From positions 48,453,501-48,517,500 of the forward strand of contig CM065804.1 of the NCBI GenBank assembly GCA_033398695.1: a stretch of DNA of 64,000 bases, written 5' to 3'. The DNA is from Orobanche coerulescens. Its lineage: Eukaryota; Streptophyta; Magnoliopsida; Lamiales; Orobanchaceae. A model generated the notes under the pieces. That model saw only the letters and a program-made list of their open reading frames with translations, did no database searches and was not told the origin of the DNA. Made by a program: the position numbers and the translations under genes. Positions 6,070 to 56,682 of the stretch are shown one piece after another. Numbering within the stretch: position 1 is the first letter of the stretch; the number at the start of each line of letters is the position of its first letter.

Positions 6070-6641
6070 TTACGGCCGTAACTCGGCCTTCTTACGGCCG
6101 TAACATCCCAGGTCAACGGCCTTACGGCCGTAACCAGCCAACTCGTACGTCCGTAACTCGGCTTCGTCCAAACACCTGCCGACAACCTTACGGCCGTATC
6201 CGAACCTGACTTACGGGCGTAACTCGCCCTCGTCTAAAACACCTGCCGACATCCTTACGGCCGTACCCGGACACCTTACGGGCGTAACTCGGACGATACG
6301 GCCGTATCCGGCCAATATTACGGGCGTAAGCCCCCTTCGTCGAAAATGACCAGGTACCCTGCCTGTAACGTACGGCCGTATCCGGCCAAGCCTTACGGCC
6401 GTATCTCCCTCGTCTTACGGCCGTATGCCGCAACCCTTACGGCCGTAACTCGCCTTCGGCCAAAAACGCCTGGGCACCCTGCACGACACGTACGGCCGTA
6501 TCCGGCCAAGCCTTACGGCCGTACTGCCTAACATACGGCCGTATGCCGAAATCCTTACGGCCATAAGTCCCGCTCGTCCAAAATGGCCTGAAAACAACGA
6601 ACATCTATTACGGCCGTATCCGACACTCCTTACGGCCGTAA
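6070..6641. repeat. palindrome array, TTACGGCCGTAA type, E 3' LTR
   Basis: I count 20 units of a 12-bp palindrome, TTACGGCCGTAA, or close variants (TACGGCCGTA, TTACGGGCGTAA) over 570 bp at irregular spacing of about 20-45 bp. A longer internal repeat is also present: GGCCAAGCCTTACGGCCGTA occurs twice, with related flanks. The array lies in U3, immediately upstream of the TATA-like box in element orientation. Confidence 0.9.
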
Positions 6642-6990
6642 CTCGTTGCTGGACAAGATGAAAATCTGACAACTCCGATTTCTCGCTACGATTGATGAAT
6701 GATTCGACATACCATACGTATGTTAAAGTGAAAAAATCCAACACATGCCAAAAATGATACTTCGAGCACAAGACTACCAATCATGATGATAATGATAATA
6801 CTCCCGTTCCGACACTCAAACGGATATGAAACGATGATCGGTAACTGATACACAGTTACAACATGCCAAATGAATGCAAATGAATGAATAATGAATGATG
6901 AGTGATTATTAATGAGTGAAAATTACTGAGTGATAATTACTGACTGATAATTACTGAATGATAATGAATGAATTACAACCGGGTATTACA

Positions 6991-7010
6991 TACTCCCCCC
7001 TTAAAAGGAG
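6991..7010 (-). other. polypurine tract of E
   Basis: On the minus strand the purine-rich run AAGGGGGGAGTA directly precedes the LTR. The same arrangement is seen in element I at 49155. Confidence 0.8.
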
Positions 7011-7024
7011 TTTCGTCCCCGAAA

Positions 7025-11815: not shown

Positions 11816-14417
11816 TGTAACACCCCAAACTAGGCGGATATTACAGTGCCGTGGATCCCCGACTGGGACCCACCAGGCGAATGAAAATGATGAATTAAAT
11901 AATATAATTGTAGTACCGAACCACATTATATTACCAAATACTCCAATGAGGAGTTTAAGTACAACACACCAGGACAATACCGAATACTAGTATATTTTAT
12001 ATGAAGATAAAATACACAACACTGAATGAAACGGAGTATCCTCATGATAGTCTGCAGCTGAAAATAAATGACAACAACATGAATGATCAAAAGATCGGGG
12101 GCCCCTACTAGTTTCTCTGGGACTCCTCGCCTTCAATGTTCTTTTCCCGTTCTTTTGCCTTGCCATGACCTAAAAACAAAATCCCCAAATGGGGTCCGGG
12201 CCATACGTAACAACAATCCTCAAGGGTTGAAAATACACAATCATGATATATCTTTAGTTATGAAATATCCTTAGTTATGAATTACGCTGAAGAGGAGTAT
12301 CATAGTACGCCCGTAATGTTCTGTACAAGTGTACAAGACGGATGACCGGACACATCCGTACTTGTACCTAATCAGTCTCATGGAGGTAATCGTTACCGTG
12401 TGCACAGTCCAATGTATCGATCCCAATACATGACCATCGCGTGCTCGACTAAAAATTCCACACATCCGCACCCGGCCACGCAATATGAACCCAGAAGGTC
12501 ATATGAACGAGAATGACCAAAATGAATATCAATGAATAATATTAATCCGACAAGGTCGAGAATGACTCACCGAGATGAAAATGATATTGAAGTGAATGAT
12601 AGTTCAATGAAATGATTGGAACCGCCGTTCCTCGTGAATGAAGTTATTATTCGACAATTACAAGTCTCAATACGATTAATACAATGATGAATGAGTTATG
12701 ATTATGAATGAACAACAACAAGAGGAATGAATATCCTTTTAACCGAGTAAGAATTAACTTACACAACACCGATGAAGAATGTCCTTCCACGAACAACGTC
12801 CTAAACGGGATGTCGGTCGCTCGAACAACCTTGAATAACACAATATCGAACAATCCGTTCAACATACAAATCAAACACTATGATAACCAACTCAAAATGT
12901 CGATACGACTAAACTAAGTTCATTGGGGCATTATATCAAACACATTGTGACCAATCTCCGATTGTTTACAATCAATCCTCAATTATACCAACATTAAATC
13001 CCCAAGAAGTGTTTCAAACCAACAAAACATCTTCAATACGATCAATAATCCAAGATGAATATCCAAAATCGTGATTACAACAACAATTAATCGAAAACCC
13101 CCAAATCCAACTCAATATTCAAAGTGTTCTTGAATAATCCTTCAATAATCGAATGAATAATCATACATATCCACAATCATGTGTACATCACTTCATACAA
13201 CATGATTTAAACGTCTAAAACATCATATCTTAATACAAAATCGAAATCCAAGATGTTGAAGAATATTACCTTAGAAGATCCAAACACTTCGATCCGATGA
13301 AAACGTGTTAAATCGACTATCCAAGCTTCCCAACGAATCAAGATGATGAAATCCGAACACACAAGTGATTTATGATGACAAAATATCTCCCTCAAGCTCT
13401 CTCTCTCGGAACAAAGTGAAGGAAATGAGAAAAATGAGGAAAAGTCCCGTCCAAGACATATATAAACTGCTGGAAGTTACGGCCGTAACTCGGCCTTCTT
13501 ACGGCCGTAACATCCCAGGTCAACGGCCTTACGGCCGTAACCAGCCAACTCGTACGGCCGTAACTCGGCTTCATCCAAACACCTGCCGACAGCCTTACGG
13601 CCGTATCCGAACCTGACTTACGGGCGTAACTCGCCCTCATCTAAAACACCTGCCGACATCCTTATGGCCGTACCCGCACACCTTACGGGCGTAACTCGGA
13701 CGATACGGCCGTATCCGGAAAATCTTACGGGCGTAAGCCCCCTTTGTCGAAAATGACCAGGTACCCTGCCTGTAACGTACGGCCGTATCCGGCCAAGCCT
13801 TACGACCGTATCTCCCTCGCCTTACGGCCGTATGCCGCAACCCTTACGGCCGTAACTCGCCTTCGGCCAAAAATTCCTGGGCACCCTGCTCGACACGTAC
13901 GGCCGCATCCGGCCAAGCCTTACGGCCGTACTGCCTAACTTACGGCCGTACTGCCTAACTTACGGCCGTATGCCGAAATCCTTATGGCCGTAAGTCCCGC
14001 TCGTCCAAAATGGCCTGAAAACAACGAACGTCTATTACGGCCGTATCCGACACTCCTTACGGCCGTAACTCGTTGCTGGACAAGATGAAAATCCGACAAC
14101 TCCGATTTATCGCTACGATTGATGAATGATTCGACATACCATACGTATGTGAAAGTGAACAAATCCAACACATGCCAAAAATGATACTTCCATCACAAGA
14201 CTACCAATCACGATGATAATGATAATACTCCCGTTCCGACACTCAAACGGAGATGAAACGACGATCGGTAACTGATACACGGTTACAACATGCCAAATGA
14301 ACGCAAATGAATGAATCATGAATGATGAGTGATTATTAATGAGTGAAAATTACTGAGTGATAATTACTGACTGATAATTACTGAATGATAATGAATAAAT
14401 TACAACCGGGTATTAAA
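11816..14417 (-). repeat. 5' LTR of E (about 2.6 kb)
   Basis: On the plus strand it begins TGTAACACCCCAAACTAGGC and ends ...GGGTATTA, followed by AA where the other copy has CA, so the terminal dinucleotide is lost or mutated. It contains the TATA-like site at 13459-13466 and the palindrome array at 13477-14068. The backbone matches the element I LTRs. Small ORFs within it show no domain. Confidence 0.9.
13477..14068. repeat. palindrome array, TTACGGCCGTAA type, E 5' LTR
   Basis: I count 21 units against 20 in the other LTR; the extra unit is a 20-bp tandem duplication at about 13937-13956 (motif plus CTGCCTAACT). Several units differ from the other copy by C-to-T or G-to-A at CG sites (for example TATGGCCGTA, ACGACCGTA, GGCCGCATCC), as expected from deamination of methylated cytosine. 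Confidence 0.9.
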
Positions 14418-14713: not shown

Positions 14714-15465
14714 ACTCAGAAGTTGGGTTTTTGGATTAATAACTAAAAGAATGAATAAGAGACTAAACAGAAAGCGATAGCTTGAATAAAAGGAATCAAA
14801 TGATAAATAGGTCTAGAGTTCTGAATCCACCTTAATTTATCCGAATTTAATCTTGATCATCCGTAATAAATAATTTTCCCAATTTATTGAAGGCGGAGAT
14901 TGCTAATATATTCTACCGCCTCTCCCGAGGTCAATAGATTTATCTAACGGCGACTAACGCACTCTATCCCTAGGTGAATTATCTCGTCGCTAGGCAAAAA
15001 GCATGAAATCTCCTAAAGGCCACGTAGTTCCGATGAGTATATTCCTATCTCACAGAATAAAACGGTCCTCACCAATAGTTCCTCACCAAATCTCCTCTCC
15101 CGATTCGAAGTGAATGATTAAATCAATACAACTATTGGCCAGATAATTGCAAGCATTAAACATAATTGGGAAAACTCAATAAAAAGGTAATAAATTGGAT
15201 AATCTCAATCAATTCGTCAAAATAAAGGTTTCATCAAAACCCTAGATTAGGGCTTTAGCCTGACATACTAAAAGCTGAAAATACAGAATAAATAAACGAA
15301 AGCATAAAATTCAAACGCAGATGAAGCTCGGATTCCTCCGTTCTTCAGCTTCCGCCTTCTGCCCTTGAATTCCTCTACTTTCCTCCTCTTCTCTGTCTCC
15401 AAGCTTAAGCTCTCCTAGGTTTAGATTTAATGATTCCAAGATCATTAAATTAGGGTCTTAAGCCC

Positions 15466-15474
15466 TATTTATAG
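15466..15474 (-). promoter_or_regulatory. TATA box of the G LTR
   Basis: The minus strand reads CTATAAATA, a good plant TATA box, about 87 bp downstream of the palindrome array. The same site in the other LTR is near 23208-23216. Assigned by motif and position. Confidence 0.6.
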
Positions 15475-15560
15475 CTCAGCACCTCCACAAATCGCGTCCA
15501 TATTAATCGGTTGAAAATCGGCCAAACGCCCAAAATCCGTGCACGTATAAATCGCGCTAA

Positions 15561-15743
15561 GTGTGCCGCGGCTCACCTGAGCTGTGCCGCGGCACATCGC
15601 TAAAATCTGAATACCTGGGCGTAATTAAATCCTTCTGTGCCGCGGCTCACATGGGCTGTGCCGCGGCACAGAGTACAGCCTACTCTGCCCTTCGGCTGGT
15701 GTCTTCCTTTGCCGCGGCTCAGCTTCCTTGTGCCGCGGCTCAT
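15561..15743. repeat. palindrome array, GTGCCGCGGCAC type, G 3' LTR
   Basis: Six units built on CCGCGG with GTG/CAC or GAG/CTC arms: GTGCCGCGGCAC (perfect palindrome) and GTGCCGCGGCTCAC variants, at about 15561, 15582, 15637, 15656, 15707 and 15729. They lie upstream of the TATA box in element sense. Confidence 0.9.
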
Positions 15744-17206: not shown

Positions 17207-18541
17207 TCAGAGCTGTGCCGGCATCGTCCGGTGAGGAGGGTGGTGTGGCTGGCCGGGCGGGCGCAGAAATGGCCCGTCGGGATGCATGATGTGGGCCGTC
17301 CATGCGGCGAGGTGCTCCCGATGATAAGCCTCCTCGCAGCAAGACGCCTCTCCGCTCGTCTGGCCGGCGGCTCGCTCTCTCATCTCGGCTCTGGCGGCAG
17401 CAACAACACTCTCCCGCGCCGCCCGCTGCTCCTCTCGCAAGGCAGCCATCCAGCTCTCTCTCTCTCTCCTCATCTCATCTCTCTCTCTCCTCAGCTCCTC
17501 CCTATCTCTCCGCAGCTCCTCCCTATGCTCTTCTCTCTGTCTCCTCATATCCTCCCGCAGCCCATCAAACAGCTCCTCCAACCTCGCTCTGTCGGGCTGC
17601 GGTCCGGCCTCTCCGTGCGTCAACAGAAGTGGCTCGGGGGAGCCCTCGTGAGCCTCCTCGAGCAAAAATCCTCGCCCCCGAGCGTGTGCCGGTGCTCCGC
17701 CCCACTGCTCAAAGTGCGATATGATGCGGTGGTCGATCGGGGCCTGTGGGGCAAGCATCGGCTCGTCGACTGACCACGTCAGCCCCGACTGCCGGCATAA
17801 GGCGCAGATGAGGGAGGGGTGCTTCAACCCCGTCTTGGCCCCCCCTGGATACTCTGGAAGATAGATCGGACCAGAATGGGGGCCACATCGAAGCGCAGCC
17901 CGGAGGTGATAGCAAAAAGTATCCGGGCGCGGGAGAGAAAAACTGTACGGATCTGGGAGGTAGGGTCGATGCGTGCGCAGATGAAGTAAAGCCAGGCTCG
18001 CCCGAGGAGCCGAGGCGCGAGCTCTGAAGTGAAAAGTAGATGAGCTCGTGCTCGCTCCCTGGGCCGGTACAGGCTGTGCAATCGTCTCAAGCAGGGCCTC
18101 CTTAGTGAGGCCGGTCATCACGCGGTCATAGGCTGTCTCGTCCACCGCCGGAAACCCAAAAAGCCTCCGAATAGCAGTTGGGGAGAAATCAACTGTGACC
18201 CCTGCCCGGATGTGCTTCAGCAGAGCGCTGGCGTAAAACTCCTGGACGATCGAGATGACCGCTGGCTCGGGAGGAGCGGTAAATCTGGCCCATCCCATCT
18301 CGTCAATCATCGCGAGCAACTCCCCGTCCTGAGGAGCTGGAGTAAAACCTCTCTCGGGAATAAGTGGTCGCGGACGGATCTTTTCGTTGAATATCTTGTG
18401 GATTTCGGGGTCCGAAAATTGGTGCCCCTCCGCCTCGGCCCTACCCCGAGAGGTCTCCCCTCGCGTAGGGGATGACTCGGTCCTAGCACGCTTGGTCAGC
18501 TTCTTCGTGCGCGCCATAATCAGTCCTGAGAAGTACAACAC
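17207..18541 (-). CDS. 3' ORF of G, plant-transposon-associated protein
   Basis: 444 codons. The likely start is the internal ATG of MARTKKLTKRART (about 18517). The N-terminal part (IPERGF, VQEFYASALL, DFSPTAIRRLFGF) resembles the 'putative plant transposon protein' found in the 3' part of Athila-like and related elements; its function is unknown. The C-terminal third is a charged coiled coil rich in R and E (about residues 320-400). The middle (about residues 160-230) reads as low-complexity sequence, while an alternative frame at 18090-17824 gives the family-like text (FICARIDPTSQIRTVFLSRA), so two compensating frameshifts, near 18060 and 17840, are likely. Confidence 0.7.
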   Translation of the reverse strand: MLYFSGLIMARTKKLTKRARTESSPTRGETSRGRAEAEGHQFSDPEIHKIFNEKIRPRPLIPERGFTPAPQDGELLAMIDEMGWARFTAPPEPAVISIVQEFYASALLKHIRAGVTVDFSPTAIRRLFGFPAVDETAYDRVMTGLTKEALLETIAQPVPAQGASTSSSTFHFRARASAPRASLALLHLRTHRPYLPDPYSFSLPRPDTFCYHLRAALRCGPHSGPIYLPEYPGGAKTGLKHPSLICALCRQSGLTWSVDEPMLAPQAPIDHRIISHFEQWGGAPAHARGRGFLLEEAHEGSPEPLLLTHGEAGPQPDRARLEELFDGLREDMRRQREEHREELRRDREELRRERDEMRRERESWMAALREEQRAARESVVAAARAEMRERAAGQTSGEASCCEEAYHREHLAAWTAHIMHPDGPFLRPPGQPHHPPHRTMPAQL

Positions 18542-19199
18542 GAGGGTTTATTTACGCAACAATAAGAACGATGATATATGCGCGGCTAAAGACATCAAAC
18601 TAAAAATTCCGAATTTAAGACACTAGCGCATACGAGAGAGAAAGATGAATTTGGACTTAAACATTCAACTTGGATGTAAGGGTTGGGCTTGCTGTAAATT
18701 CAAAACGTATACATTGCACGAGAATTCAAAACGTTTGCTTTTTCAAAGAAAATTTTCATTTGGGCAATTTATCAGACACCTTGAGGGCGCATGTTTACTT
18801 GAAGAATAAACATAATTTTAGCTCGATTCACCCCCCCCCCAAAAAACAGAAATACAATTCAATCATGAACAACTTAACACAATCAAGTCATTGATATTCC
18901 AATTTAATCAAGAAAATTCGATGAAACTACCCTGTTAACAATCATGAAACTACTTGAAGGAAAAACTGGGCATGTTCCATCCATTCAACGCAAAAACAAC
19001 TTCAAAATATAACCTATAAGCAAATAAACAATAAGGATGGAAGCGTACCTTTTGAAGATTTCAAGAAAAATCGCAGGAAGAATTTTGAACAACGTCGGTA
19101 GAGAGAAGAGGAGGGAAGGCAAGGAGAAGAAAAAGAACGTACCTGATAAATGCCGGCTGAATGCATGTTATAAGCTACCTGGCCTTTCGGATTCCGCAT
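18542..19199 (-). other. leader between internal array and 3' ORF of G
   Basis: AT-rich non-coding stretch with a run of ten C residues (18831-18840) followed by A residues. It is read in element sense from the internal array toward the 444-codon ORF. TTATAA at 19168-19173 lies about 27 bp from the array edge and could act as a TATA box. Confidence 0.5.
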
Positions 19200-19425
19200 A
19201 GTGTGCCGCGGCACAGATAAGGTGAGCCGCGGCACAAGGTACAGTCCCTTTTACCTGTGTCTCGTTTTGTCGTGTGCCGCGGCTCAAATTCCGTGTGCCG
19301 CGGCTCATTGCTCGAGTGTGCCGCGGCTCATTTATGCTGTGCTGCGGCACAAAGTACAGTCGGTTTTGCCTCCCATTGCGATCAATGTGTGCCGCGGCTC
19401 ACAATAACTGTGCCGCGGCTCATAC
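19200..19425. repeat. internal palindrome array of G (same motif as its LTR)
   Basis: Eight units of the GTGCCGCGGCAC/GTGCCGCGGCTCAC motif at about 19200, 19222, 19273, 19294, 19316, 19337, 19387 and 19408, with intervening text (ACAGT, TTTTGCC) like that in the LTR array. It lies between the protease ORF and the 3' ORF, i.e. upstream of the latter in element sense. Confidence 0.9.
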
Positions 19426-22328: not shown

Positions 22329-23652
22329 TGTTGCGATATTTCCTACACGCAAGTGCACGTCATCGTTTACAAGTAATAAAGTGATAAGTAGAGTATCGTT
22401 CCCACGAGGATTGAATCTCTAACTACCGACGTTTTCGTATTCCAATTTTATTTGAACAATCGAAGTTGGGTTTTTGGATTAATAACTAAAAGAATGAATA
22501 AGAGACTAAACAGAAAGCGATAGCTTGAATAAAAGGAATCAAATGATAAATAGGTCTAGAGTTCTGAATCCACCTTAATTTATCCGAATTTAATCTTGAT
22601 CATCCGTAATAAATAATTTTCCCAATTTATTGAAGGCGGAGATTGCTAATATATTCTACCGCCTCTCCCGAGGTCAATAGATTTATCTAACGGCGACTAA
22701 CGCACTCTATCCCTAGGTGAATTATCTCGTCGCTAGGCAAAAAGCATGAAATCTCCTAAAGGCCACGTAGTTCCTATGAGTATATTCCTATCTCACAGAA
22801 TAAAACGGTCCTCACCAATAGTTCCTCACCAAATCTCCTCTCCCGATTCGAAGTGAATGATTAAATCAATACAACTATTGGCCAGATAATTGCAAGCATT
22901 AAACATAATTGGGAAAACTCAATAAAAAGGTAATAAATTGGATAATCTCAATCAATTCGTCAAAATAAAGGTTTCATCAAAACCCTAGATTAGGGCTTTA
23001 GCCTGACATACTAAAAGCTGAAAATACAGAATAAATAAACGAAAGCATAAAATTCAAACGCAGATGAAGCTCGGATTCCTCCGTTCTTCAGCTTCCGCCT
23101 TCTGCCCTTGAATTCCTCTGCTTTCCTCCTCTTCTCTGTCTCCAAGCTTAAGCTCTCCTAGGTTTAGATTTAATGATTCCAAGATCATTAAATTAGGGTC
23201 TTAAGCCCTATTTATAGCTCAGCACCTCCACAAATCGCGTCCATATTAATCGGTTGAAAACTGGCTTCGAAACGGCCCAAAATCCGTGCAGACGTATAAA
23301 TCCCGCTAAGTGTGCCGCGGCTCACCTGTGCTGTGCCGCGGCACATCGCTAAAATCTGAATACCTGGGCGTAATTAAATCCTTCTGTGCCGCGGCTCACA
23401 TGGGCTGTGCCGCGCACGCAGTACACTCTACTCGCCCTTCGGCCGGTGTCTTCCTTTGCCGCGGCTCGCCTTCCTTGTGCGCGGCTCATAGTCCCAGCTT
23501 TTGCCGTTTTACGCTTTGCATCGTTTAAGCTTCCGGACTTCAATTTCCTGTCAATCATGCAAAATTAAGGCATTAAAAGCTCATTTAGATGATTTCACAC
23601 TCCAAAATACTACAAAATAATGATGAATAAGCGTATAAAAATACGCCTAACA
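22329..23652 (-). repeat. 5' LTR of G (1324 bp), with palindrome array
   Basis: Plus-strand ends are TGTTGCGATATTTCC and ACGCCTAACA. It contains the array at 23310-23490 (same motif as the other LTR, with several small indels) and a TATA box near 23208-23216. The five bases after it, TCGAA, would be the target duplication; the partner was deleted on the left side. Confidence 0.9.
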
Positions 23653-26140: not shown

Positions 26141-27590
26141 TGTTAGGAATATGCCCTCAAATGCCACTCAGGGGATGAGAGTGTAGGGGCATTGTACTTG
26201 TAATTATGTAATAATTAATAAAAAGGCAATACGATTCATTCACTATTTATTGTCTTTCAATTGCATTGATGACTTGGTAAACGTTGAAGTGAAGTCCATG
26301 TAAATAAATAGAACATTCCATTCTCATTATGGGATAAGAGAAAATGCATTGGAAGTGTTTAAAGTTTATTTACGTAAATCGTTCGCAAGTCAATAAACTT
26401 AAACGGGCATTAAGTTTTAATAAGACTTGTATAACTAATGCTGGGACATGTGCATGTCTTGATAGCATAGTTAAAAGTATATTGATGGGGCCAATATACT
26501 CGAACACGACTCATACTCGATTTAGTCACACGGTATTCACTCTCGGAGAGTCGATGACGAATCGAAAGTTTGTGATAATATACGTGGACCTTTGACTTCA
26601 GGGCTCAGTAGAAGATGTGCCTGTGATGTTTAGTTTGTCATTAGAGTAGTTAGACTCAATTGATTAATTGTTGAGTCAATCTCGAAGTGCGGACTATATG
26701 GGCAGGTAGCAGTCTTTACTGTACGCCAAGAAAGGATTCTATCTCCTGTTAGTGAGCAGGTGAATGTCCTATACGGATAATTGCAAATAAGATCATAAGT
26801 CTTTGGCCAAAGCATTCTGATATAGTCGTATTAGATACAATATTAATCAATCGGTCTTGATTTGCATTAACACAGGTATAAAGTCTAGTCAACAGTAGGG
26901 TTTGACTTTACCGTGACCCGAAGACTTGACCGGGACATCTGATGAAGGGTCTATACGTATGTGGTATTCACGACATAATGGTTTTGGAATGATCCCTTTA
27001 TTCGTTCTCAGTCGGGGTTTACAGTGCGGCCCGCTAGGCTGGCTAAGTGCTGCCCGCACTCGTTGGTTCCTCCCAATGCCGGCTGAGACGGACCTACGGA
27101 GTCGCGCATCAGGAGCGTTGACGGATAAATGTGAATTTATTATCTCTCTATTAATATTAGATATTGGGTATCTAATTTATGATTTATTGGATAAATCAAA
27201 TAGCGGTCTTATGAATTAAAATTAAGTTACCAGGTAATTAGTTTAATTCATAAATTATATTTCTTAGAGAAATATATTTGTATTTGATATAATTCATTAA
27301 TTAGATTAATTAATTTATATAAATACATTGGAGATTAAATGGAGTGTATTTAACGGAGTCGTTTGACGAACGTCTAGTACACGAGCCGAATAGCTCGGCT
27401 CGTTTCTAGGAAGCTTCCTTGGGCCGCCCCATCTCTCCCCACCTCACATGGCTTGGTCTTGTTTTAACATGGTGTGTTGTGTGTTTGATTGAGATAAGAT
27501 TCCATCTTGTTTTTTCTATCTCAATTATGAGTTATATGAGTTGTTATATATATCTATATTACAACTAACTCATGTGTGATGAAAGACTTT

Positions 27591-27621
<31 letters not shown>

Positions 27622-33604: not shown

Positions 33605-33925
33605 TTACGGCCGCTATCTCCTTCATATTATGTCCGTAAGCTCGTTTACGTACATTAAATAAACATTGTTACGTACGTTAACATATATGCAGTTTAGTCC
33701 AGTAGCCTTCGTTCTTTTCCTTACGTACGTTATCCAATCTTGCATTACATACATTATCAAGGTCAATGTGTCCGTTGCATGCTGACCTATACCATGACGT
33801 CATTTCCAACGTTCTCCTTGTTTGAATTCGAAACACTCCATTACATACGTTAGCCAACCCCTCTTACGTACGTTAAGTAGCTTATATTACGTACGCTATA
33901 TAGCTTATGTTACGTACGTTAAGCT
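33605..33925. repeat. palindrome array, TTACGTACGTTA type, C 3' LTR
   Basis: About ten units, for example GTTACGTACGTTAAC, CTTACGTACGTTAAG and ATTACGTACGCTAT, plus two related units with ACGGCCG or ATGTCCG cores at the TATA-proximal end. The other LTR has the same set at about 36705-37000 with point changes. Confidence 0.88.
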
Positions 33926-36113: not shown

Positions 36114-37131
36114 TGTTGGTGCAAAATCGCTATTTGCGCCGTTGTGCGGAAGCGTAAATATAAAGTTGCGGAAATTAAACAACACATGGATTTAAGAGGT
36201 TCGGATATAATTGAACCTACGTCCTCTCTCGGTATCTTTTTCTATAGGATAAAGATCAAAACCTCCACACCTCTCTTCTATCGGTCTAGGGATAACCATT
36301 ACAATCACGTCTTCAATTGGTTCATGATAAACCACTCGTACTTATCTTTGTGTCGGTCCAAGTTAAACCGTTTTCCTTTTCGTATGACAAGGAATCAACC
36401 TCTCTAGATTTCTATGGGTACTAGATAGACCTCACTTAGATATCGATTGCGATTCTAACAATGTCATATCCTTGATCCTAATAACACTGAATCCAATCGC
36501 ATCTTTTCTTTTACCTCTCGTGTGTATGTTGAATGTATAAACACTCAAACTAACAATATAAGCTCAATATCACAACAACAATATAATATAAATCAATTTA
36601 TGATGAATGTATCGTTTGCTTGAAGTTGTTGTATTGAAACAATACCATAGGAATGGTATTTATAGGCTCCAAAGCCTTACTAGCCGTTAGCTCCCTGACT
36701 CTTCATTACGGCCGCTATCTCCTTCATATTACGTCCGTAAGCTCGTTTACGAACGTTAAATCAACATTGTTACGGACGTTAACATGTATGCAGTTTAGTC
36801 CAGTAGCCTTCGTTCTTTTCCTTACGTACGTTAGACAATCTTGCATTACATACGTTATCAAGGTCAATATATCCATTGCATGCTGACCTATGCCATGACG
36901 TCATTTCCAACGTTCTATTATATACGTTAGCCAACCCGTCTTACGTACGTTAAGTAGCTTATATTACGTATGCTATATATCTTATGTTACGTACATTAAG
37001 CTTGAACAATTCCATCTTTTTGCACTTCGTTTCTTTCGTTGATTTGCTTCGCCTTTTTGTTGTTTTGTTTTGTGTATCAACTTAATCATCAAAACTCTAT
37101 TAATGCATGTATGGAACAAAATTTTCCATCA
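36114..37131 (-). repeat. 5' LTR of C (1018 bp)
   Basis: TGTTGGTGCAAAATCGC to TTTTCCATCA on the plus strand. Relative to the other LTR a stretch near 33819-33840 is absent. Array at about 36705-37000. Flanked by TGGAC at 37132-37136. Confidence 0.92.
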
Positions 37132-38740: not shown

Positions 38741-39468
38741 ATCAGGCTGGAGTGCACGCCCCGCCCTCAGAGGTACCCGGATATGACGTCTCTCATAGCA
38801 AGTATTCACATTATTACAAATACCAAGCACACAGTCAACCGTTGCAACAATTATTAAATCAGTTCATCAATTCACATAATTTATTAGCCAGTACGCAACT
38901 ACACAAAATAAACAATAACTCGCACGTTATTCATCAAGACTTAGCACATTAGGCCTTCAACACTATCAATTAATACTACATAAATATCCTTATACCGTAA
39001 CTCAACCGAAAATACAAACATTACCATATTACCTCTATAAATTTTATTCGTACTTTAGTCTAAGTTGAGTACGTCGACTAATATTGGAATGAATCACCCA
39101 ACATTTATCTCTATATGTATATTTATATACATACACATATATCTATACATATATCCACATATATCTATATACATATATATATAATATAAATACAGATATT
39201 CATAACATGATTCATATACTTCAGCAACAATGATTTCACGTAATTATAATTCGTATATCAAGGTACTTGCCTTGGTAATCTCTCGCGAATACTCCAGAAA
39301 TACAGTTGATTGGAACAATCCAGAACTCCAACAAAAACGACGATCGGAGAGGCTCAACACTGGATTATTGTAGGAAATTCGTCCTTAATATCCTATCATT
39401 AAATAAGCAATCAATCACACGAGGAAAAGCATAAAAAGATGGCCGAACCCTAACTGTTCTCTTCGTAA

Positions 39469-39635
39469 CGTACGTTACACACATACGTAACGTACGTTAC
39501 GTCTGCACGTTAGCGCACGTAAGCTACAAGGATTAGCGCACGCTAAGCATGCATCGACGCTTCTTCTCGGTTCATACGATCGCTTGCACGAGGTATAACG
39601 TACGTAATGCATAGAGCTTAACGTACGTTATATTC
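39469..39635. repeat. palindrome cluster 1 in D 3' LTR
   Basis: GTAACGTACGTTAC twice, TTAGCGCACGCTAAG, and two AACGTACGTTA/ATAACGTACGTAAT units. On the element strand this cluster is downstream of the TATA-like site. Repeated at 45215-45385. Confidence 0.85.
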
Positions 39636-40230: not shown

Positions 40231-40245
40231 CATATATATAATATC
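40231..40245 (-). promoter_or_regulatory. TATA-like box of the D LTR
   Basis: CATATATATAATATC on the plus strand gives a TATATATA box in either reading, 8 bp from the main palindrome cluster. Conserved at about 45979-45993. Confidence 0.55.
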
Positions 40246-40252: not shown

Positions 40253-40640
40253 TTACGTACGTTAGCCTTAGCCATTTACATACGTAATCGACTTAGCACA
40301 CGCTACCATTCAATCTTAGCGTACGCTATCGGTCACTGATAGCTTACTGTCTCGTTCCGTACTAGCTTACGTACGTTACACCCTACGCATTACGTACGTA
40401 AGCTACACACATTAGCGTACGCTAGTTACAAACCTTAGCATACGTTAACACCCGTTGACCCCAAAACTGTCCAGGTTCATCCGCGGGAATCTTTCCGAGC
40501 CCCACCACCAGCCGTCCATGTGCTAGCCAGCCTGTTCAATTATTGACCTCCTTACGTACGCTACGTCTAGCTCGTAGCGTACGCTATCTCCAGTTCGTAA
40601 CGTACGTTACGCTTACCTGTTAGCGTGCGTTACAACGTAG
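40253..40640. repeat. palindrome cluster 2 in D 3' LTR (upstream of TATA)
   Basis: More than ten units of two alternating types: TTACGTACGTTA/TAACGTACGTTA and TTAGCGTACGCTA, for example GTAGCGTACGCTATC and GTAACGTACGTTAC. Repeated at about 45992-46385 with C/T differences. Confidence 0.9.
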
Positions 40641-41466: not shown

Positions 41467-42051
41467 TCATTCACCTATGATAGGCTCTTCAGCAGAAGAC
41501 ATAAGGTTTCGGGACATTCTCCGGCCACTTGCTCTGCTCACCGACAGAGTAGCATTCTTTGCCAATTCGGAAATTATCTCATAATGTTTCTCCCGATGGC
41601 CTTCACACCCGCACTGATGACAAGTCAAGAGTGGGGAGGGACGGTTTACACGGATGTGTCCCGTACGGTTGCAGTTGAAGCACACTCTCTTCTTACCGGG
41701 AGTCACTAATGCTGGTTGGGGATTCCCAATGCTCATTCTCGACTGCGAAGACGACGCATTCGAATGACGCGGGGGTTTGAGAACCTTAGTCTCGTCACCG
41801 CCCAAAATTTTTTCAGATGTCCTCTGTCTCTTTTCTCCGCTCGTTGGCTCGGTCACTGAGGAGGTTTCATAGGTTATCGTCTGATCTTGATATTCCTTCA
41901 CCGTAACATGAATCGTTGTCGTACGAACCACCTCACCACTTCCGCTTCCTATATTACGTCTACATCCGCCAGGGCTCGTCATGCTAATGCAGATAGTACC
42001 GTTTATTGTTATCACATAGTTGGTTGTACGGTATACCACAATTATCAACAT
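41467..42051 (-). pseudogene. gag: gag remnant of element D
   Basis: 194-codon frame; the likely start is the internal MTSPGGCRRN. The C-terminal half holds two knuckle-like motifs: CFNCNRTGHIRVNR (last Cys is Arg) and CHQCGCEGHREKHY (last Cys is Tyr). The capsid core is missing. The knuckle spacing is that of gypsy gag, and the decayed cysteines suggest no selection. Confidence 0.8.
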
Positions 42052-43076: not shown

Positions 43077-46000
43077 TGTAACACCTCCAGAATACATCCG
43101 TAAATGTTACACGCCGTAGGCCCTTCTTACAAGGATCTACAAGGCTAAACTCTACTAGACTACAAAATGATTGACCGACCGGGGTCAATCTAAATACAAC
43201 GCAGACCGACAAGGTCATTAAACAATTCAGAAACAAATGAACTTTACATCTCAATGACAAAAATAAACTTGAACACAGAAAAGAACGACAACTCAATTTA
43301 ATAAATGAAAAATACACCCATGCAAGGGTGGATACTCGAACGACACAGAAATATCGACCAAATGCAACAAAAGAAAAGACTCTAACTCTGGTGTGATTAG
43401 TATCATTTGTCCTCCATCTCCTTCCCAGCCAATCCTGTGACTGCTCCCGAGCTGCCAAAACCTGAGCGCATAACAGGCACCCGCCCCCCGAAAACTCGGG
43501 GGTTAGCAAACAAGAATTTTGCTAGTGCAAGTACATAATACACAAGATATAGGAATAATAATAACACAAAACTCAACAGTCGTGAAACCTTAACACAAAC
43601 CACACATTCAAATGGTCAACACAGAATAGCATTACATACATAAGGTGAATGATAATCACATTGTCATATTCTCCATACAGAACATAACACCAATGAAACT
43701 TTAAACGAGCCCAAGGAGTCAGAAAAATCCCTTTTTATAAAAGGAAAAGTATTTTGATAAGAAAGTTCGAAAACATTAATATTGACTCGGGCCATCTTGG
43801 GGTTTTGAAAATCAGATGGAAATATTTTAGAAAATACTTCAAAAGCTCTCGGGTCCTTGACCCAACATGTGGAAAACAATTTCCAAGAAAACTATTACAA
43901 CGTTATTCGGGGTCCTCGACTCAAATGATAAACACTATCACAAGCGAATCATTACAACATCTCACGGGGTTCTCGGCCCAATCCAAATAATATCATCACG
44001 AGATCAAATCTCAACATCTCACGGGGTCCTCGACCCAAATACACAGAATAATCAACACAGTACAATCAAAGGCACAGCCTCTCATTCGACAAATCCTGCT
44101 CAAGATCCCTGATTAATTAACCCTCGGAGATCTCGTCAAATATCCTTGGTTAATTAACCGTGATACCAACATTTAAAACAAATTGGAACGAACTCCAGAA
44201 ACACAATTCGCGGTCTACATCAAGACCAACATTAAAAGCATGTTGCAAAGATTTAAATTTCGAAAATCATTTGGTAACGGGGTCTTAGCTATCACTCAAA
44301 TATCCGTTACCAATAAGCCTGCCAGGCGCCTCCCTTGCACACCTGTGTACCGGCGTTCACTCCACTATATTGGCCGCCCATTGCACATGTCACCGCGCCG
44401 GCGTTCACTCCCACAGGAGCCGCCCCTTGCTCGCGCATTAAGTAACACCGGTGTTCACCAATCATATGGAGCCTCTTATTACAGCGTACATCAGGCCGGA
44501 GTGCACGCCTCGCCCTCAGAGGTACCCGGATATGATGTCTCTCATAACAAGTATTCACATTATTACAAATACCAAGCACACAGTCAACCATTGCAACAAT
44601 TATCAAATCAGTTCATCAATTCACATAATTTATTCGCCAGCACGCAACTACGCAAAATAAACAATAACTCGCACGTTATTCATCAAGATTTAGCACATTA
44701 GGCCTTCAACACTATCAATTAATACTACATAAATATCCTTATACCGTAACTCAACCGAAAATACAAACATTACCATATTACCTCTATAAATATTATTCGT
44801 ACTTTAGTCTAAGTTGAGTACGTCGACTAATATTGGTATGAATCACCCAACATTTATCTATATATGTATATTTATATACATACACATATATCAATACATA
44901 TATCCACACATATCTATATATATATATATATATAATATAAATACAGATATTCATAACATGATTCATACACTTCAGCAACAATGATTTCACGTAATTATAA
45001 TTCGTATATCAAGGTACTTGCCTTGGTAATCTCTCGCGAATACTCCGGAAATACAGTTGATTGGAACAATCCAGAACTCCAACGAAAACGACGATCGGAG
45101 AGGCTCAACACTGGATTATCGTAGGAAATTCGTCCTTAATATCCTATCATTAAATAAGCAATCAATCACACGAGGAAAAGCATAAAAAGATGGCCGAACC
45201 CTAACTGTTCTCTTAGTAACGTACGTTACACACATACGTAACGTACGTTACGTCTGCACGTTAGGGCACGTAAGCTACAAGGATTAGCGCACGCTAAGCA
45301 TGCATTGGACAGTTCTTCTCAGTTCTGCATTGCCTTGCACGAGGTATAACGTTCGTAATGCATAGAGCTTAACGTACGTTATATTCACACATATCATACT
45401 CATGTGAATCATAACGATCCTACGGTGTTGATGTCTATGAATTCCAGGTTAATCCTCCCATCATAAGACTCACTCCAAATATTGATTATAGATCCTCAAA
45501 GGTAGTTCGGAAAATCAGACGTTGTTACCAACATTAAGTCTATGATCATTATGGAAACACCATACAATACGGTTTATTAATCTCAGAAATTTACCTTACT
45601 TGATCATCATAATAAGAATCGGAATATAACGTTCTTAACTCGGGTAACTAAAGCATGAACATTCCCACTTCCAAAAACATGGTGTTCGGATAAAAATCAT
45701 CTATGGAGCTTAATAATCCCGGTGGTATGTTCATAACATCCTTAAGAACACGAATTCAAGGTTGAGGTAGCATTAATATACCTTAATATGAAAGAAACGC
45801 AGAGACAAGAGGTAGCATCCAATTCTGATTGCTTGAATGTCAATCCAAGATGTTTCGTAACTTAAATGATCGAGTCTACGTGTTCTATATGTGTTTTAGA
45901 GGGCTGGAGACCCTCTAGAAATGAAGGAAAATGAAGTACAAGTGAAAGGGACGAAGAGAAATGAAATGGGGTGTTGTCCATATATATAATATCTTGAGTT

Positions 46001-46525
46001 TTACGTACGTTAGCCTTAGCCATTTACGTACGTAATCGACTTAGCGCACGCTACCATTCGATCTGAGCATACGCTATCGGTCACTGATAGCTTACTGTCT
46101 CGTTCTGTACTAGCTTACGTACATTACACCCTATGCATTACGTACGTAAGCTACAGACATTAGCGTACGCTAGTTACAAACCTTAGCGTACGTTAACACC
46201 CGTTGACCCCAAAACTGTCCAGGTTCATCCGCGGGAATCTTTCCGAGCCCCACCACCAGCCGTCCATGTGCTAGCCAGCCTGTTCAATTATTGACCTCCT
46301 TACGTACGCTACGTCTAGCTCGTTGCGTACGCTATCTCCAGTTCATAACGTACGTTACGCTTACCTGTTAGCATGCGTTACGACGTAGTTGCATGTGAAG
46401 GATTAAAATTTGATATTATCATGCATGAGGATATGAATACGGAAACGATCGTACTTCGATTATATTCAGGTAATACAGGGTTCAAATACGGACGAAAATA
46501 CCCAACAATTTATCCGGATATTACA
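43077..46525 (-). repeat. 5' LTR of D (3449 bp)
   Basis: TGTAACACCTCCAG to CGGATATTACA, near-identical to 37329-40787. Holds the same tandem repeats and palindrome clusters (45215-45385 and 45992-46385). Followed by CAAAC (46526-46530). Confidence 0.93.
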
Positions 46526-46836: not shown

Positions 46837-48480
46837 TGTAACACCCCAAACTAGGCGGATATTACAGTGCCGTGAATCCCCGACTGGGACCCACCAGGCA
46901 AATGAAAATGATGAATTAAATAATATAATTGTAGTACCGAACCACATTATATTACCAAGTACTCCGATGAGGAGTTTAAGTACATTACACCAGGACAAAA
47001 CAGAATACTAGTATATTTTATATGGAGATAAAATACACCACCCTGAACAAATAAGCATCTCAAACGGAATTTGCAGCGGAAAATACAAATGACAGAAATG
47101 ACTGAAATGACTGGAATAAAAGGAATGACTGGGGCCCCCTACTAGAATCACTGGGACTAGTCGCCGTCAACATGCTCTTCCCGTGCCTTTGCCTTGCCGT
47201 GACTAAACAAAATCCCAACGGGCCGGCCATACGTAACAACAATCCTCAAGGGTTGAAAATACACAAACATGATTTAATGAAGTTATGAAATATCCTTAAT
47301 TATGAATTACGCCAAGAGGAGAATCATAGTACGCAAGTAGTGTTCTGTGCAAGTGTACAAGACGGATGACCGGACACACCCGTCCTTGTACCTAATTAGT
47401 CTCACGGAGGTAATCGTTACCGTGTGCACAGTCCAATGTATCACTCCCAATACATGGCCATCACGTGCCCGACTAAAAATTCCACACATCCGCACCCGGC
47501 CACGCAATATGAACGCTTATTTTCATATGAACAAGAATGACCATAATGAATATCAATGAATAATAATAATCCGACAAAATCAAGAATGACTCACCGATAC
47601 GAAAGTGATAATGAAGTGATTGATAGTTTTCAATGAAATGATTGGAACCGCCGTTCCTCGCTAATGAAATGATTATCCGAAAATTACAAGTCTCAAAATG
47701 ATTAATACAATGATGAATGAATTATGATTATGAATGATCAACAACAAAAGGAATGAATGTCCTTTTAACCGAGTAAGAATCAACTTACTCAACAACAATG
47801 AAGAATGTCCGTCCACGAACAACGTCCTAACCAAGATACCGGTCGCTCGAACAACCTTAATTCATTACAATTACCAACAATCCGATTAATAACGAATTAA
47901 ACACGAATAAAACGAACTCAAGACGTCGATACGATTAAACCAAGTTCATCGGGGCATTATATCGAACACTTTGAGGCCAACTTTGATTGTATACAACTAA
48001 ACCTCAATAATATCAACTTCAAATCCCCAAGAAGTGTTTCAAATCAACAAAACATCTCCAATACGATCAATAATCCGTTATGATTATCCGAAAACGTGAT
48101 CATAACAACAATTAGTCGAAAATCCCCAATTCCAATTCGATTTACAAGGTGTTCTTGAATAATCCCTCAATAATCCAATGAATCCTTATACAAACTCATA
48201 ATCATATACATATCCCTTCATATATCATGATTATAACGTCCAAAACATCTATTTCAACACAAAATCGAAGTCCAAAGTGTTGAAGGAATTACCTCTTGAT
48301 GATCCACGTGCTTTAATCCGAAGAATACGCGTTAGATTGATTATCCGGGCTTCACGATCGAAAGGAGATGAAGAAAATCAAACACCCAAATGATTTGTGA
48401 AGGAAAAACCCTCCCTCAAGCCTTATCTCTCGGTTGAAGGTGAAGAAAATGCGAAAATGGGCTGAAATGATGAAAAAATG

Positions 48481-48488
48481 AATTTATA
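48481..48488 (-). promoter_or_regulatory. TATA box of the I LTR
   Basis: Minus strand TATAAATT, 15 bp from the palindrome array. Conserved in the other LTR at 55996-56003. Confidence 0.6.
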
Positions 48489-48502
48489 GGGGGATCGCTG
48501 CC

Positions 48503-48800
48503 GGACACGGCCGTGCCCGATCGGCACGGTCGTGTCGCACTGGCCGACTACCGGCCGACAGTGACTCGACCGTGTCCGGATTGACACGGTCGCGGCTGCG
48601 GGCCTTCCGAGCGACCCGCGACGGCCGACTCGGCATGACTCGGCCGTGTCACGGGACACGGTCGGGCGTGTCGGCGATCGTTCGAGCTTATCCGGAAGAG
48701 TACGGCACGGGCCGTGTCGGGCGACACGGTCGAGCCTGGTCGGCGAAACTTCGCATTTTCCGGACGAGTACGGCACGGGCCGTGTCGGACGACACGGCCG
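48503..48800. repeat. palindrome array, ACACGGCCGTGT type, I 3' LTR
   Basis: Units of GACACGG(C/T)CG(T/A)GTC and CGGCACGGGCCGTGTCG, both orientations, about ten in 300 bp, mixed with GGCCGAC words. The other LTR has the same array at 56023-56335. Confidence 0.88.
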
Positions 48801-49154
48801 AGTTCGGTCGGCAGTGCTCGGCCAAAAACTGAAACGACCATAACTCTCTCGTCCGGACTCCGATTGACTCACCGTTTGAACCATTGGAAAGCTAACTCGA
48901 TGCTCTATAATATTGCAAAGATTTAGAATTTTGGTATTACAAAAATTTAATGGTGATCTAACAAAGTCTAACTCATTTGAGGTATGTTGAATAGATGAAC
49001 AATAACGATACTCAACTCGAAGTTTATACGATCGGTGAACACGGTGAATGAACATGATTGATGAATGATTATAATTGAGTGAAAATACACTGAGTGACAA
49101 TTACAGACTGATAATTACTGAATGAAAATGAATGAATTACAACCGGGTATTACA

Positions 49155-52599: not shown

Positions 52600-53855
52600 G
52601 GCTTGCTAATCCCGGCACCGGACGCTCCCGTCTGATGGCTAAAAGCTCCACCTTTAGTCGCTCCCGTCGTTTTAAACGACGCTGATTGAGTGGTCTGATT
52701 CGAGCAGTGTTGCTTAGGTGCACGAGATGACGTCGAGTAGGTTTGGAGTCCCTACGGCAAAACGGGCCTTATGTCCCACAATTCCACAGTTATGACACGT
52801 GATGACTGTCTCGGACACTTAGTGCCGACATGACCAAGATCCCCACGGTTGTAACGGTGATGGCCGAACGGCCGCTCGCGGCGAGATTCCGCGGGTTTAG
52901 ACGACACCGAGGTCGCTCAAAAAAGCGAGCCCGCACGGGGTTTCTTGAAGGTTGTCGACCACCTTCGGTGATTACGATTCTTCGATTTCTTGCTAGCGCA
53001 CGAAGGTTCGCTTAGCAATTTCCTTAGCGAAGCTCGTAGGTGAGAGCTTTCTCAATGAATTCGCCAACGTGGTGCAATTATGATTAAGTAATCAAGTCTC
53101 ATACGGGGTTTCACCTCTTGCTGAAATACTTGATCTTATCCGCCTCCGAATGAATGATGGATGAGGCGAATGGAAGAAGTTCTGAAATTTCTCGGCAATG
53201 GCGAGAACATCCTCGTCTCGCCGAGGGGTCGGGGTGAGCAATTCCGGCAGCTTGGCCTCTCTGAGTGGGGCCGGATAATACCTCTCCATCATGAGAGTCT
53301 TGAATCGATCCCAAGTACAAGATCCTTCGGTGGGCTTCAACGATAACCACCAAGAATGTGCGCTCTTACCCGGGTAGTAAGCCGCAACGAAACTTTGTGT
53401 CCTTGGGACACTCTACCATAGCAAACAACTTCTCGAAATGCTCGAGCCAATGAATGATATCTGCCGGCTCAGGCGAGCCCTCAAAAGTAGGTGGCCTCTG
53501 GCGAGAGATATCGCCGATGATATTACTCACATTCCTCTCTTGCCTCTGAGGTGGCGGCGGAGGAGCCTGCTGATTTTGATTGACGGAGTTATGCATTGTC
53601 TCCATCAACTGAGCCATCTGGGTCATTTGGGCCATCATGCCCTGCATAAAGCGAGTGGGTCAACCCGGACACCTCGACCGAGCCGTGTCCTGTACGACTC
53701 TGATAGTGAATGATCGCGTCCTGTGTGAATGAGTGGCGGCGTCCGCTCGATGAATTAGCATTATTCCTCGCGTTTGCACGTGTATTCACATGAGCTCTCG
53801 GGATTCGGCCCGCTCCACGGCCTCGTCCTCCACGTCCTCTTCTTGCCCTCTCCAT
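52600..53855 (-). pseudogene. gag: gypsy I gag
   Basis: The likely start is ATG 53855 (MERARRGRGGRGRGAGR). The capsid core is readable in two frames (53647-53366 with PPTFEGSPEPADIIHWLEHF; 53340-53092 with RFKTLMMERYYP). The nucleocapsid region 53090-52600 is heavily frameshifted. A second knuckle (CHNCGIVGHKAR) can be read near 52765-52805, and the first has lost its leading cysteines. Many of the breaks fall where E has CAG or CTG and I has CG. Confidence 0.87.
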
Positions 53856-54330
53856 ACTGAAGTAGGAAAGTCACATGATGATTATATTCACCGCATGAAA
53901 TATACGTTATGATTATGACATGAGATTATGAAAATGAGCATACGCGCTCTAACACGGTGATTACATGAATGATTAAGCGAGGTGACATGATTATCGATGA
54001 AATTATTGAAATGATTATCTTGAATGAGTTAACAAGATTAATGATTCGATCTTCACGATCAACAATCGAACAATGAAATTAATTGGTGGTTAATGAGTTA
54101 ACTCGACCGTCTGGTCAAAATGACAATGATGATTGAGGATTGTTAAGCGATGAATTATGAATGAATGACTATTGCGAGAAATTATACCATGGCATTAGAA
54201 ATCTTACGATTCTTGATCTGATTGGCTCGGCATTTGCACAGGTCACACGTGACGCGAAAGTCCAATGATACTAGTCTGATGACGATAATTTCAAATGAGA
54301 CATGACTTGGAGGGTAGTATTCAAAACCAC
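53856..54330 (-). other. leader of element I
   Basis: Non-coding. Aligns with the E leader (11232-11799) but has one copy of the 58-bp unit instead of three. Confidence 0.7.
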
Positions 54331-54346
54331 GCTCTGATACCAACTC
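54331..54346 (-). other. primer binding site of I
   Basis: Minus strand GAGTTGGTATCAGAGC, containing the exact initiator-Met primer site. Confidence 0.9.
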
Positions 54347-56682
54347 TGTAACACCCCAAACTAGGCGGATATTACGGTCCGTGAATCCCCGATTGGGACC
54401 CACCAGGCAAATGAAAATGATGAATTAAATAATATAATTGTAGTACCGAACCACATTATATTACCAAGTACTCCGATGAGGAGTTTAAGTACATTACACC
54501 AGGACAAAACAGAATACTAGTATATTTTATATGGAGATAAAATACACCACCCTGAACAAATAAGCATCTCAAACGGAATTTGCAGCGGAAAATACAAATG
54601 ACGGAAATGACTGAAATGACTGAAATAAACGGAATGACTGGGGCCCCCTACTAGTATCACTGGGACTCGTCGCCGTCAACATGCTCTTCCCGTGCCTTTG
54701 CCTTGCCGTGACCTGAAAACAAAATCCCCCAACGGGGTCAGTTACACAGAACAACAATCCTCAAGGGTTGAAAATACACAATCATGATTTAACTGAAGTT
54801 ATGAAATATCCTTAATTATGAATTACGCTGAAGAGGAGTATCATAGTACGCCCGTAGTGTTCTGTGCAAGTGTACAAGACGGATGACCGGACACACCCGT
54901 CCTTGTACCTAATTAGTCTCACGGAGGTAATCGTTACCGTGTGCACAGTCCAATGTATCACTCCCAATACATGGCCATCACGTGCCCGACTAAAAATTCC
55001 ACACATCCGCACCCGGCCACGCAATATGAACCCAGAAGGTCATATGAACAAGAATGACCATAATGAATATCAATGAATAATAATAATCCGACAAAATCAA
55101 GAATGACTCACCGATACGAAAGTGATAATGAAGTGATTGATAGTTTTCAATGAAATGATTGGAACCGCTCCTCGCTAATGAAATGATTATCCGACAATTA
55201 CAAGTCTCAAAATGATTAATACAATGATGAATGAATTATGATTATGAATGATCAACAACAAAAGGAATGAATGTCCTTTTAACCGAGTAAGAATCAACTT
55301 ACTCAACAACAATGAAGAATGTCCGTCCACGAACAACGTCCTAACCAAGATACCGTCGCTCGAACAACCTTAATTCATTACAATTACCAACAATCCGATT
55401 AATAACGAATTAAACACGAATAAAACGAACTCAAGACGTCGATACGATTAAACCAAGTTCATCGGGCATTATATCGAACACTTTGAGGCCAACTTTGATT
55501 GTATACAACTAAACCTCAATAATATCAACTTCAAATCCCCAAGAAGTGTTTCAAATCAACAAAACATCTCCAATACGATCAATAATCCGTTATGATTATC
55601 CGAAAACGTGATCATAACAACAATTAGTCGAAAATCCCCAATTCCAATTCGATTTACAAGGTGTTCTTGAATAATCCCTCAATAATCCAATGAATCCTTA
55701 TACAAACTCATAATCATATACATATCCCTTCATATATCATGATTATAACGTCCAAAACATCCTATTTCAACACAAAATCGAAGTCCAAAGTGTTGAAGGA
55801 ATTACCTCTTGATGATCCACGTGCTTTAATCCGAAGAATACGCGTTAGATTGATTATCCGGGCTTCACGATCGAAAGGAGATGAAGAAAATCAAACACCC
55901 AAATGATTTGTGAAGGAAAAACCCTCCCTCAAGCCTTATCTCTCGGTTGAAGGTGAAGAAAATGCAGAAAATGGGCTGAAATGATGAAAAAAATGAATTT
56001 ATAGGGGGTTGACTGCCTGCCGGACACGGCCCGTGCCGATCGGCACGGTCGTGTCGCGCAGCTGGCCGACAGCTGGCCGACAGTGACTCGACCGTGTCCG
56101 GATTGACACGGTCGCAGCGCTGCGGGCCTTCCGAAAGCGACTCGGCGGCGACTTCGGCATGACTCGACCGTGTCCTGGGACACGGTCGGGCGTGTCGGCA
56201 GTCGTTCCAGGCTTATCCGGAAGAGTACGGCACGGGCCGTGTCGGACGACACGGTCGAGCCTGGTCGGCAGAAACTTCTGCATTTTCCGGACGAGTACGG
56301 CACGGGCCGTGTCGGACGACACGGCCGAGTTCGGTCGGCAGTGATCGGCCAAAAACTGAAACGACCATAACTCTCTCGTCCGGACTCCGATTGACTCACC
56401 GTTTGAACCATTGGAAAGCTAACTCGATGCTCTATAACATTGCAAAGATTTAGAATTTTTGGAGTTACCAAAAATTAATGGTGATCTAACAAAGTCGAAC
56501 TCATATGAGGAAAGTTGAAACGATGAACAATAACGATACTCAACTCGAAGTTTATACGAACGGTGAACACGGTGAATGAACATGATTGATGAATGATTAT
56601 AATTGAGTGAAAATACACTGAGTGACAATTACAGACTGATAATTATTGAATGAAAATGAATGAATTACAACCGGGTATTACA
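54347..56682 (-). repeat. 5' LTR of I (2336 bp), with palindrome array
   Basis: TGTAACACCCCAAACTAGGC to CGGGTATTACA. The array at 56023-56335 matches the motif of the other copy. TATA box at 55996-56003 on the minus strand. Followed by AGAGT (56683-56687). Confidence 0.92.

Follow-up and report, generated by a model that had tools for sequence, protein, structure and literature searches.

What is known of transcriptional recruitment by plant retrotransposons comes mostly from individual elements that respond to stress. Clustered sites were described in Sireviruses, copia elements whose RM boxes are CG-rich, family-specific palindromes in 8–32 copies, forming a CpG island upstream of the TATA box, which lies on average 37 bp past the island; env-containing Sireviruses have extra boxes upstream of env, and the boxes are presented as a Sirevirus-specific feature that classic copia elements lack (Bousios et al. 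2010, PMC2829016, parts on RM boxes). CpG islands, with a pattern that varies by lineage cluster, were reported for the long terminal repeats (LTRs) of Del (Tekay) gypsy elements (Cruz et al. 2014, PMC4029996), and the available part of that text has no occurrence of "palindrom", "inverted repeat" or "tandem repeat". VANDAL DNA transposons carry dense, family-specific, quickly changing short motifs in non-coding sequence, which are read by their own VANC protein (PMC5735166, in part). Here, palindrome arrays are described in the U3 regions of five LTR retrotransposon families (C, D, E, G, and I) found in a window of 64,000 nt of Orobanche coerulescens (CM065804.1, 48,453,501–48,517,500). Judged from sequence, the arrays would be promoter-proximal DNA platforms on which dimeric, probably host, proteins bind in fixed register, a reading given a probability of roughly 0.62.

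LTR pairs in the window were derived from self-comparison. All five families lie on the minus strand, as read from polypurine tract and primer binding site sequences (the G primer binding site was not recognised). The arrays, the TATA boxes, and one control are located as follows.

6070..6641, minus strand: E array, left LTR (5634–6990, truncated), 20 copies of TTACGGCCGTAA type, spacings mostly 20–23, 43–44, and 52–53 bp
6050..6059, minus strand: E TATA box TTTATATATG, left LTR, 12 bp past the array in element orientation
13477..14068, minus strand: E array, right LTR (about 11816–14417; 11816 inferred by homology to I)
13458..13464, minus strand: E TATA box, right LTR
15563..15741, minus strand: G array, left LTR (14719–15910), 6 copies of TGWGCCGCGGCWCA, spacings 21, 51, 21, 53, 21
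15464..15475, minus strand: G TATA box GCTATAAATAGG
23312..23467, minus strand: G array, right LTR (22462–23655), 4 copies
23210..23216, minus strand: G TATA box, right LTR
33605..33921, minus strand: D array, left LTR (33012–34054), spacings in order 23, 23, 23, 96, 24, 52, 23, 18, 23, counting degenerate copies
33554..33566, minus strand: D TATA box GCCTATAAATACC
36706..36998, minus strand: D array, right LTR (36114–37131)
40253..40632, minus strand: C array 1, left LTR (37329–40787), spacings 23, 23, 23, 116, 23, 23, 23, 50, 23, 18, 23, TATA box at +12
40231..40242, minus strand: C TATA box
39466..39630, minus strand: C array 2, left LTR, downstream of the TATA box
46001..46357, minus strand: C array 1, right LTR (43077–46525)
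45217..45381, minus strand: C array 2, right LTR
48505..48803, minus strand: I array, left LTR (46837–49154), 8 copies, spacings 68, 68, 18, 54, 20, 40, 19
48480..48489, minus strand: I TATA box CTATAAATTC
56043..56330, minus strand: I array, right LTR (54347–56682)
55997..56003, minus strand: I TATA box, right LTR
26141..27978, no strand given: copia LTR without array, used as negative control

As a sequence-only reading of the window had claimed, each family carried its array in U3, with 4–20 copies per family. Copies in one LTR plus the interior numbered 20 in E, 6 + 8 in G, 4 + 4 in C, and 8 in I (strict), and 7 (strict) or 9 (one mismatch) in D. The last strict copy was followed by the TATA box at 12/12 bp in the two LTRs of E, 12/12 in C, 16/39 in I, 82/64 in D, and 89/95 in G; the position upstream of the TATA box was thus as that reading had it, with distances of 12–95 bp here and 8–90 bp there. 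The copia LTRs tested within the window were array-free, again as it had stated. Its motif for I had no occurrence in the exact form. The arrays resemble Sirevirus RM boxes in being CG-rich palindromes, in a copy number of at least 8 per element, and in clustering shortly before the TATA box. Two further samples of the genome, b1 (contig C1) and b2 (50 kb), were scanned, in which arrays and elements are numbered as b1_N and b2_N. The pattern recurred in these further LTRs, and the array threshold was passed by 9% of windows in the stretch under study, 7% in b1, and 0.8% in b2. Negative controls were restricted to LTR sequence, leaving out stretches A1, B1, and B2, which are mostly coding.

The motifs are sharply bounded dyads. 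When copies were gathered by core alone, clear edges were seen in 90 distinct copies of TWRCGTACGYWA and 59 of TGWGCCGCGGCWCA, and beyond these edges dyad complementarity dropped to the null. The R/Y pair of TWRCGTACGYWA covaried between arms, and the W positions did not. The core signature of Sirevirus RM boxes is CGG-CCG; here the cores were CGTACG in C and D, CGGCCG in E, CCGCGG in G, and mostly CGG/CCG half-sites in I. The half-site TWRCG occurred with other centres in the E, b1_3, and b1_6 arrays, and that of I was the less sharp RCWCG. Matches in 314 kb numbered 365 for TWRCGNNCGYWA with at most one mismatch (67.5 in shuffles), 71 for TGWGCCGCGGCWCA (1.0), and, more weakly, 88 for the I motif RCWCGNNCGWGY (45.5). 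Genome-wide, TTACGGCCGTAAC was found 101,088 + 99,778 times and its reversed pattern 28 + 32 times. One motif is present in two kinds of LTR, since the LTR L020 (b1 111341–114058), with ends TGTAATATC...GGGTGTTACA, bears the GCCGCGGC array known from Athila-like LTRs. In another element, L021, inverted pairs of TTAACAGCGGTT/AACCGCTGTTAA cluster beside copia reverse transcriptase coding sequence (b1, about 128,370–128,750) and are perhaps a small inverted-repeat element.

Measured from centre to centre, neighbouring dyads stood preferentially 21 bp apart in G and 23 with 18 bp apart in C and D. In the same 314 kb, TWRCGNNCGYWA had 241 neighbours within 60 bp, against 0.6 in shuffles, and of its 282 spacings up to 130 bp, 176 fell at 21–24 bp and 5 at 25–40 bp. 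Spacings of TGWGCCGCGGCWCA were 21–24 bp in 35/58 cases, 49–54 bp in 16/58, and 25–40 bp in 0/58, and those of RCWCGNNCGWGY were 18–20 bp in 11/32. In the 3.65-Gb genome, G-type GCCGCGGC pairs numbered 145,265 (39 for the reversed pattern) and ACGTACGT pairs 190,761 (against 1,132). The spacing lists cover these two pair types and hold the first places on contig C1, a non-random sample. Among the matches listed, 70 of 94 GCCGCGGC places and 49 of 71 distinct sequences stood at exactly 21 bp, with linker middles 33% identical, and the 67 distinct ACGTACGT spacings included 39 at 23 bp, 16 at 24 bp, and 10 at 18 bp. The junction CGCTA-N6-TAGCG was counted 10,971 times genome-wide against 649, a comparison made without neighbouring linker lengths as control. 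A head-to-tail multimer with a 5.2-kb unit, ACGTACGT arrays, and copies about 97% identical was seen in b1 (L009–L011, C1:60,000,001–60,028,979).

Slippage or unequal exchange could spread a CG-rich unit passively, without selection, and Tandem Repeats Finder did return 66- and 118-bp units in E, where short indels within the array distinguish the two LTRs. This origin is nevertheless very improbable: the motifs persist while linkers fall to about 24–33% identity at constant length, and reverse-complement and direct pairs are of the same order (E 200/276, I 52/53, C 43/23, D 12/27), unlike in ordinary tandem repeats. The placement of the arrays before the TATA box also speaks against it.

The same spacings bear on an RNA-level explanation, proposed for maize Sireviruses, in which palindromes in the U3 transcript pair with one another and the resulting hairpins serve small-RNA silencing or packaging. 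Neighbours 21–23 nt apart could give stems of 12 bp and loops some 10 nt long, and excess small RNAs over maize Sirevirus palindrome clusters are reported in a 2023 paper citing Bousios 2016. The first linker base was complementary across 16 of 44 pairs (10.6 expected), a weak signal that 65 of 2000 shuffles reached. In the sample, however, the W positions of neighbours did not covary (inner 21/47 vs 22.9 expected, outer 26/47 vs 25.4), nor did the two sides at linker bases 2–4. Shuffling the linkers or scrambling the spacing order left the predicted RNA fold as strong in seven arrays (z −1.25 to +1.7), and hairpins alone do not predict a position before the TATA box; we consider this explanation unlikely, though small-RNA effects may still occur. 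An inner W–W covariation in the genome list (6/2000) was discarded because strand-collapsing of the list removes T–T pairs and so invalidates the null; none was seen in the uncollapsed sample.

The array-bearing families were assigned from their coding remnants, two of which are listed here.

34851..35984, minus strand: D copia gag open reading frame (ORF), PF14223, E 1.3e-27
41467..42051, minus strand: C gag-like ORF, 28% identity to E gag, sub-threshold zinc knuckle

Family I has RVT_1 and, after the integrase, a chromodomain (PF00385, E 2e-6, within 49190–50122), and self-comparison gave E an identity of 86% to I along 3 kb; on these grounds E and I were both taken as chromoviruses and as sister families. 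The LTR ends of C resemble those of E and I, and the family, called copia by the sequence-only reading, is on sequence evidence a gag-only, gypsy-like element. From their LTR ends, C, E, and I are presumably Del/Tekay. G has Retrotrans_gag and aspartyl protease domains; we take it to be Athila-like from the label of the earlier reader and the polypurine tract context. In D, three AGGGGGAG polypurine tracts lie 454, 306, and 262 bp before the 3′ LTR, the terminal tract is AAAAAAGGGGATAT, and the Sirevirus AGGGGGAG exactly 10 bp upstream of the 3′ LTR was not found, so that D is called Sirevirus-like only. Membership of the Sirevirus genus was rejected for C, E, G, and I, in which copia gag/pol was not found and which show RVT_1 and a chromodomain (I), Retrotrans_gag (G), similarity to I (E), or a gag similar to that of E (C). 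By these assignments, arrays are carried by three lineages: chromovirus-type C/E/I, Sirevirus-like D, and Athila-like G. The proposed convergence of five unrelated LTR families was therefore overstated, and it is weakened further by the layout being already in print for Sireviruses. Scans of viral contigs with G gag and I reverse transcriptase as queries returned no relatives. Target duplications of 5 bp are kept in I (AGAGT), C (CAAAC), and D (TGGAC). The left E LTR ends at 5634, abutting a copia LTR (3753–5633), with no E match before that point in self-comparison, and the sequence entered by C (37132–37328/46526–46726) has a related copy without C at 3171–3565.

The platform reading connects these observations as follows. 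Each 12–14 bp dyad would be one predicted site for a dimeric DNA-binding protein, and adjacent dimers would stand in fixed register, 21 bp apart in Athila-like elements, 23 or 18 bp in TWRCG-type arrays, and 18–20 bp in I; a further class of gaps lies near 50 bp. Several dimers would assemble in a row, from which they act on the downstream TATA box. Selection for dimeric sites, as the sequence-only reading proposed, is supported by the sharp dyads, near-random flanks, spacing preference, near-random linkers, pre-TATA place, and recurrence in other LTRs of the genome. We infer that the sites are bound by protein, that the protein is the host's, and that it would activate rather than repress. 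A host transcription factor, or a family of them, is the most probable reader, because the gag-only C, D, and b1_3 and two superfamilies (copia D and gypsy-type C/E) use the same half-site.

Beyond pairwise distances, an order of spacings was also noted. Among 19 arrays in a one-mismatch scan, the opening three spacings were 23/24 bp in 12 and the final three 23/24-18-23 in 9, with two more when a single degenerate site is allowed. Nine spacings agree between D (copia) and b1_12 (gypsy), a match reached by 367 of 200,000 random orders; the permutation used D spacings including degenerate copies (one D copy is missed at a stricter call) and dropped the spacing of 19 with which b1_12R additionally begins. 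By linker sequence, no homology to gypsy-type arrays was found for D_L, whose scores against b1_12R, C_L, b1_1, b1_105k, and b1_3L lay within the nulls (47–99 of 100 nulls reached the score); D_R against b1_105k was marginal (25, null maximum 24). Among gypsy-type arrays, linker scores against b1_105k exceeded the null for b1_1 (64, null maximum 34), C_L (35, null maximum 28), and b1_12R (27). Because several of these arrays are related by descent, the chief independent comparison is that of D with the gypsy type. We tentatively suggest, at somewhat less than even odds, that copia and gypsy elements share a rigid grammar (a 23-23-23 quartet, a middle group, a 23-18-23 quartet, and the TATA box) read by one host multi-dimer complex, with unrelated linkers and a half-site re-specified by family. 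The order common to D and gypsy may have arisen by old exchange or may have been reached twice. Arrays of the 23-18-23-TATA form were also seen in the interior of two related elements rather than in their LTRs (L019, b1 105070–105457; L021, b1 121921–122290), and these LTRs carry I-type motifs.

Several observations weigh against the platform reading. The shared ancestry just described makes the gypsy-type arrays non-independent, and the consensus was built from the same sample on which it was scored. The b2 sample holds a single array region, and in b1_2 the dyad motif is present without a cluster of three in the LTRs. The 23-18-23 end is lacking in 8 of the 19 arrays (E twice, b1_1 twice, b1_3 twice, b2_13k, and b1_72k); where it is present, the TATA box follows at 11–14 bp in six gypsy-type arrays and at 41 bp in both D LTRs, and after the b1_6R array no TATA match was found. 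Of three further places fetched for the E motif, two show a 22-bp pair only. Spacings of 18, 21, and 23 bp do not share one helical phase; since these distances differ, simple helical phasing was rejected as a rule for all arrays.

Athila-like elements carry a second array in the interior, ahead of ORF3.

19203..19421, minus strand: G internal array, 8 copies, spacings 21, 50, 21, 23, 21, 50, 21, upstream of ORF3
19164..19173, minus strand: putative TATA-like CTTATAACAT, about 30 bp past the internal array; the TATAWA scan was negative there
17207..18541, minus strand: G ORF3, 444 amino acids, partial sub-threshold PF20167 match

Internal arrays were also found in b1_9 (7 copies), where the similar TATA-like CATATAATAC follows soon after, and in b1_10 (12 copies), where ORF3 remnants only follow. 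A leader intron before ORF3 is possible from the sequence of G and b1_9. The place would correspond to that of the boxes before env in Sireviruses if ORF3 were an env. Dimers bound here would act on an internal promoter. The position also suits a self-encoded anti-silencing system, in which an element protein such as Athila ORF3 binds its own array and lifts silencing, like VANC of VANDAL. The motifs change quickly and are family-specific (E vs I), the N-terminus of ORF3 is basic, and a single long helix is predicted for its residues 318–393. The single-sequence model of ORF3 was, however, of low confidence (mean predicted local distance difference test score 47.5), and ORF3 had just two hits in PDB (E about 0.2). 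VANC motifs have one orientation and belong to a DNA transposon, whereas the arrays are dyads in LTRs; moreover, gag-only C and D bear arrays, and one half-site is common to copia D and gypsy-type C/E. As a general explanation this is improbable; for the Athila-like elements, a self-encoded reader is possible.

For a host reader, the sequence-only reading had named NAC factors, which are dimeric and bind TTNCGT with a CGT[G/A] core and the palindromic spacing CGTN7-8ACG (PMC4081100, in part). TTNCGT is compatible with the C/D half-site TWRCGT, and the core was frequent in C (33), D (20), E (44), and I (18), with b1_6 and b1_12 within 18–44; in G it occurred once. The palindromic spacing was counted 3 times in C_L, once each in D_L and E_L, and not at all in G_L, I_L, b1_6L, and b1_12R. 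As it is not the rule in these seven arrays and the G core occurs once, NAC as sole reader was not supported. NAC binding single sites is one candidate, best for the TWRCGT-type arrays.

Arrays have turned over between relatives. Alignment of the E with the I LTRs covers 1.6 kb (83.5%) and the first 110 bp (90%), and the intervening region, where the array lies, is unalignable; replacement of the array region between these sister families fits fast promoter evolution. In all five arrays, differences between paired LTRs were more frequent in CpG columns than in the others, and 11 of 14 differences in the C array were CpG transitions, which suggests past methylation of the arrays. Differences in the array-bearing U3 and downstream were 48/658 and 31/1654 in I, 15/345 and 8/841 in G, and 34/926 and 5/429 in E; in C they were not clearly raised (17/527 and 81/2917), and D showed the reverse (26/421 and 54/597). 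The raised U3 difference at non-CpG sites is unexplained.

Compared with the described systems, chromovirus-type and Athila-like LTRs of this genome also have a trait called Sirevirus-specific in print, in the parts of PMC2829016 on RM boxes. Preferred spacings were measured here, of which the RM-box section of that paper reports none. A partial literature survey of titles and abstract openings returned no paper on palindrome arrays or spacing in Athila/Tekay LTRs; the layout in these two LTR types and the preferred centre-to-centre distances appear to be new. The spacing preferences predict that the protein is dimeric, that its register is fixed, and that a 5-bp shift would abolish function. 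With 145,265 GCCGCGGC pairs in 3.65 Gb, the reader protein, if it is the host's, would face a very large site pool. If the shared grammar is true, it would be an enhanceosome-like code that different retrotransposons have converged on or exchanged, in a genome that holds more than 10^5 motif pairs.

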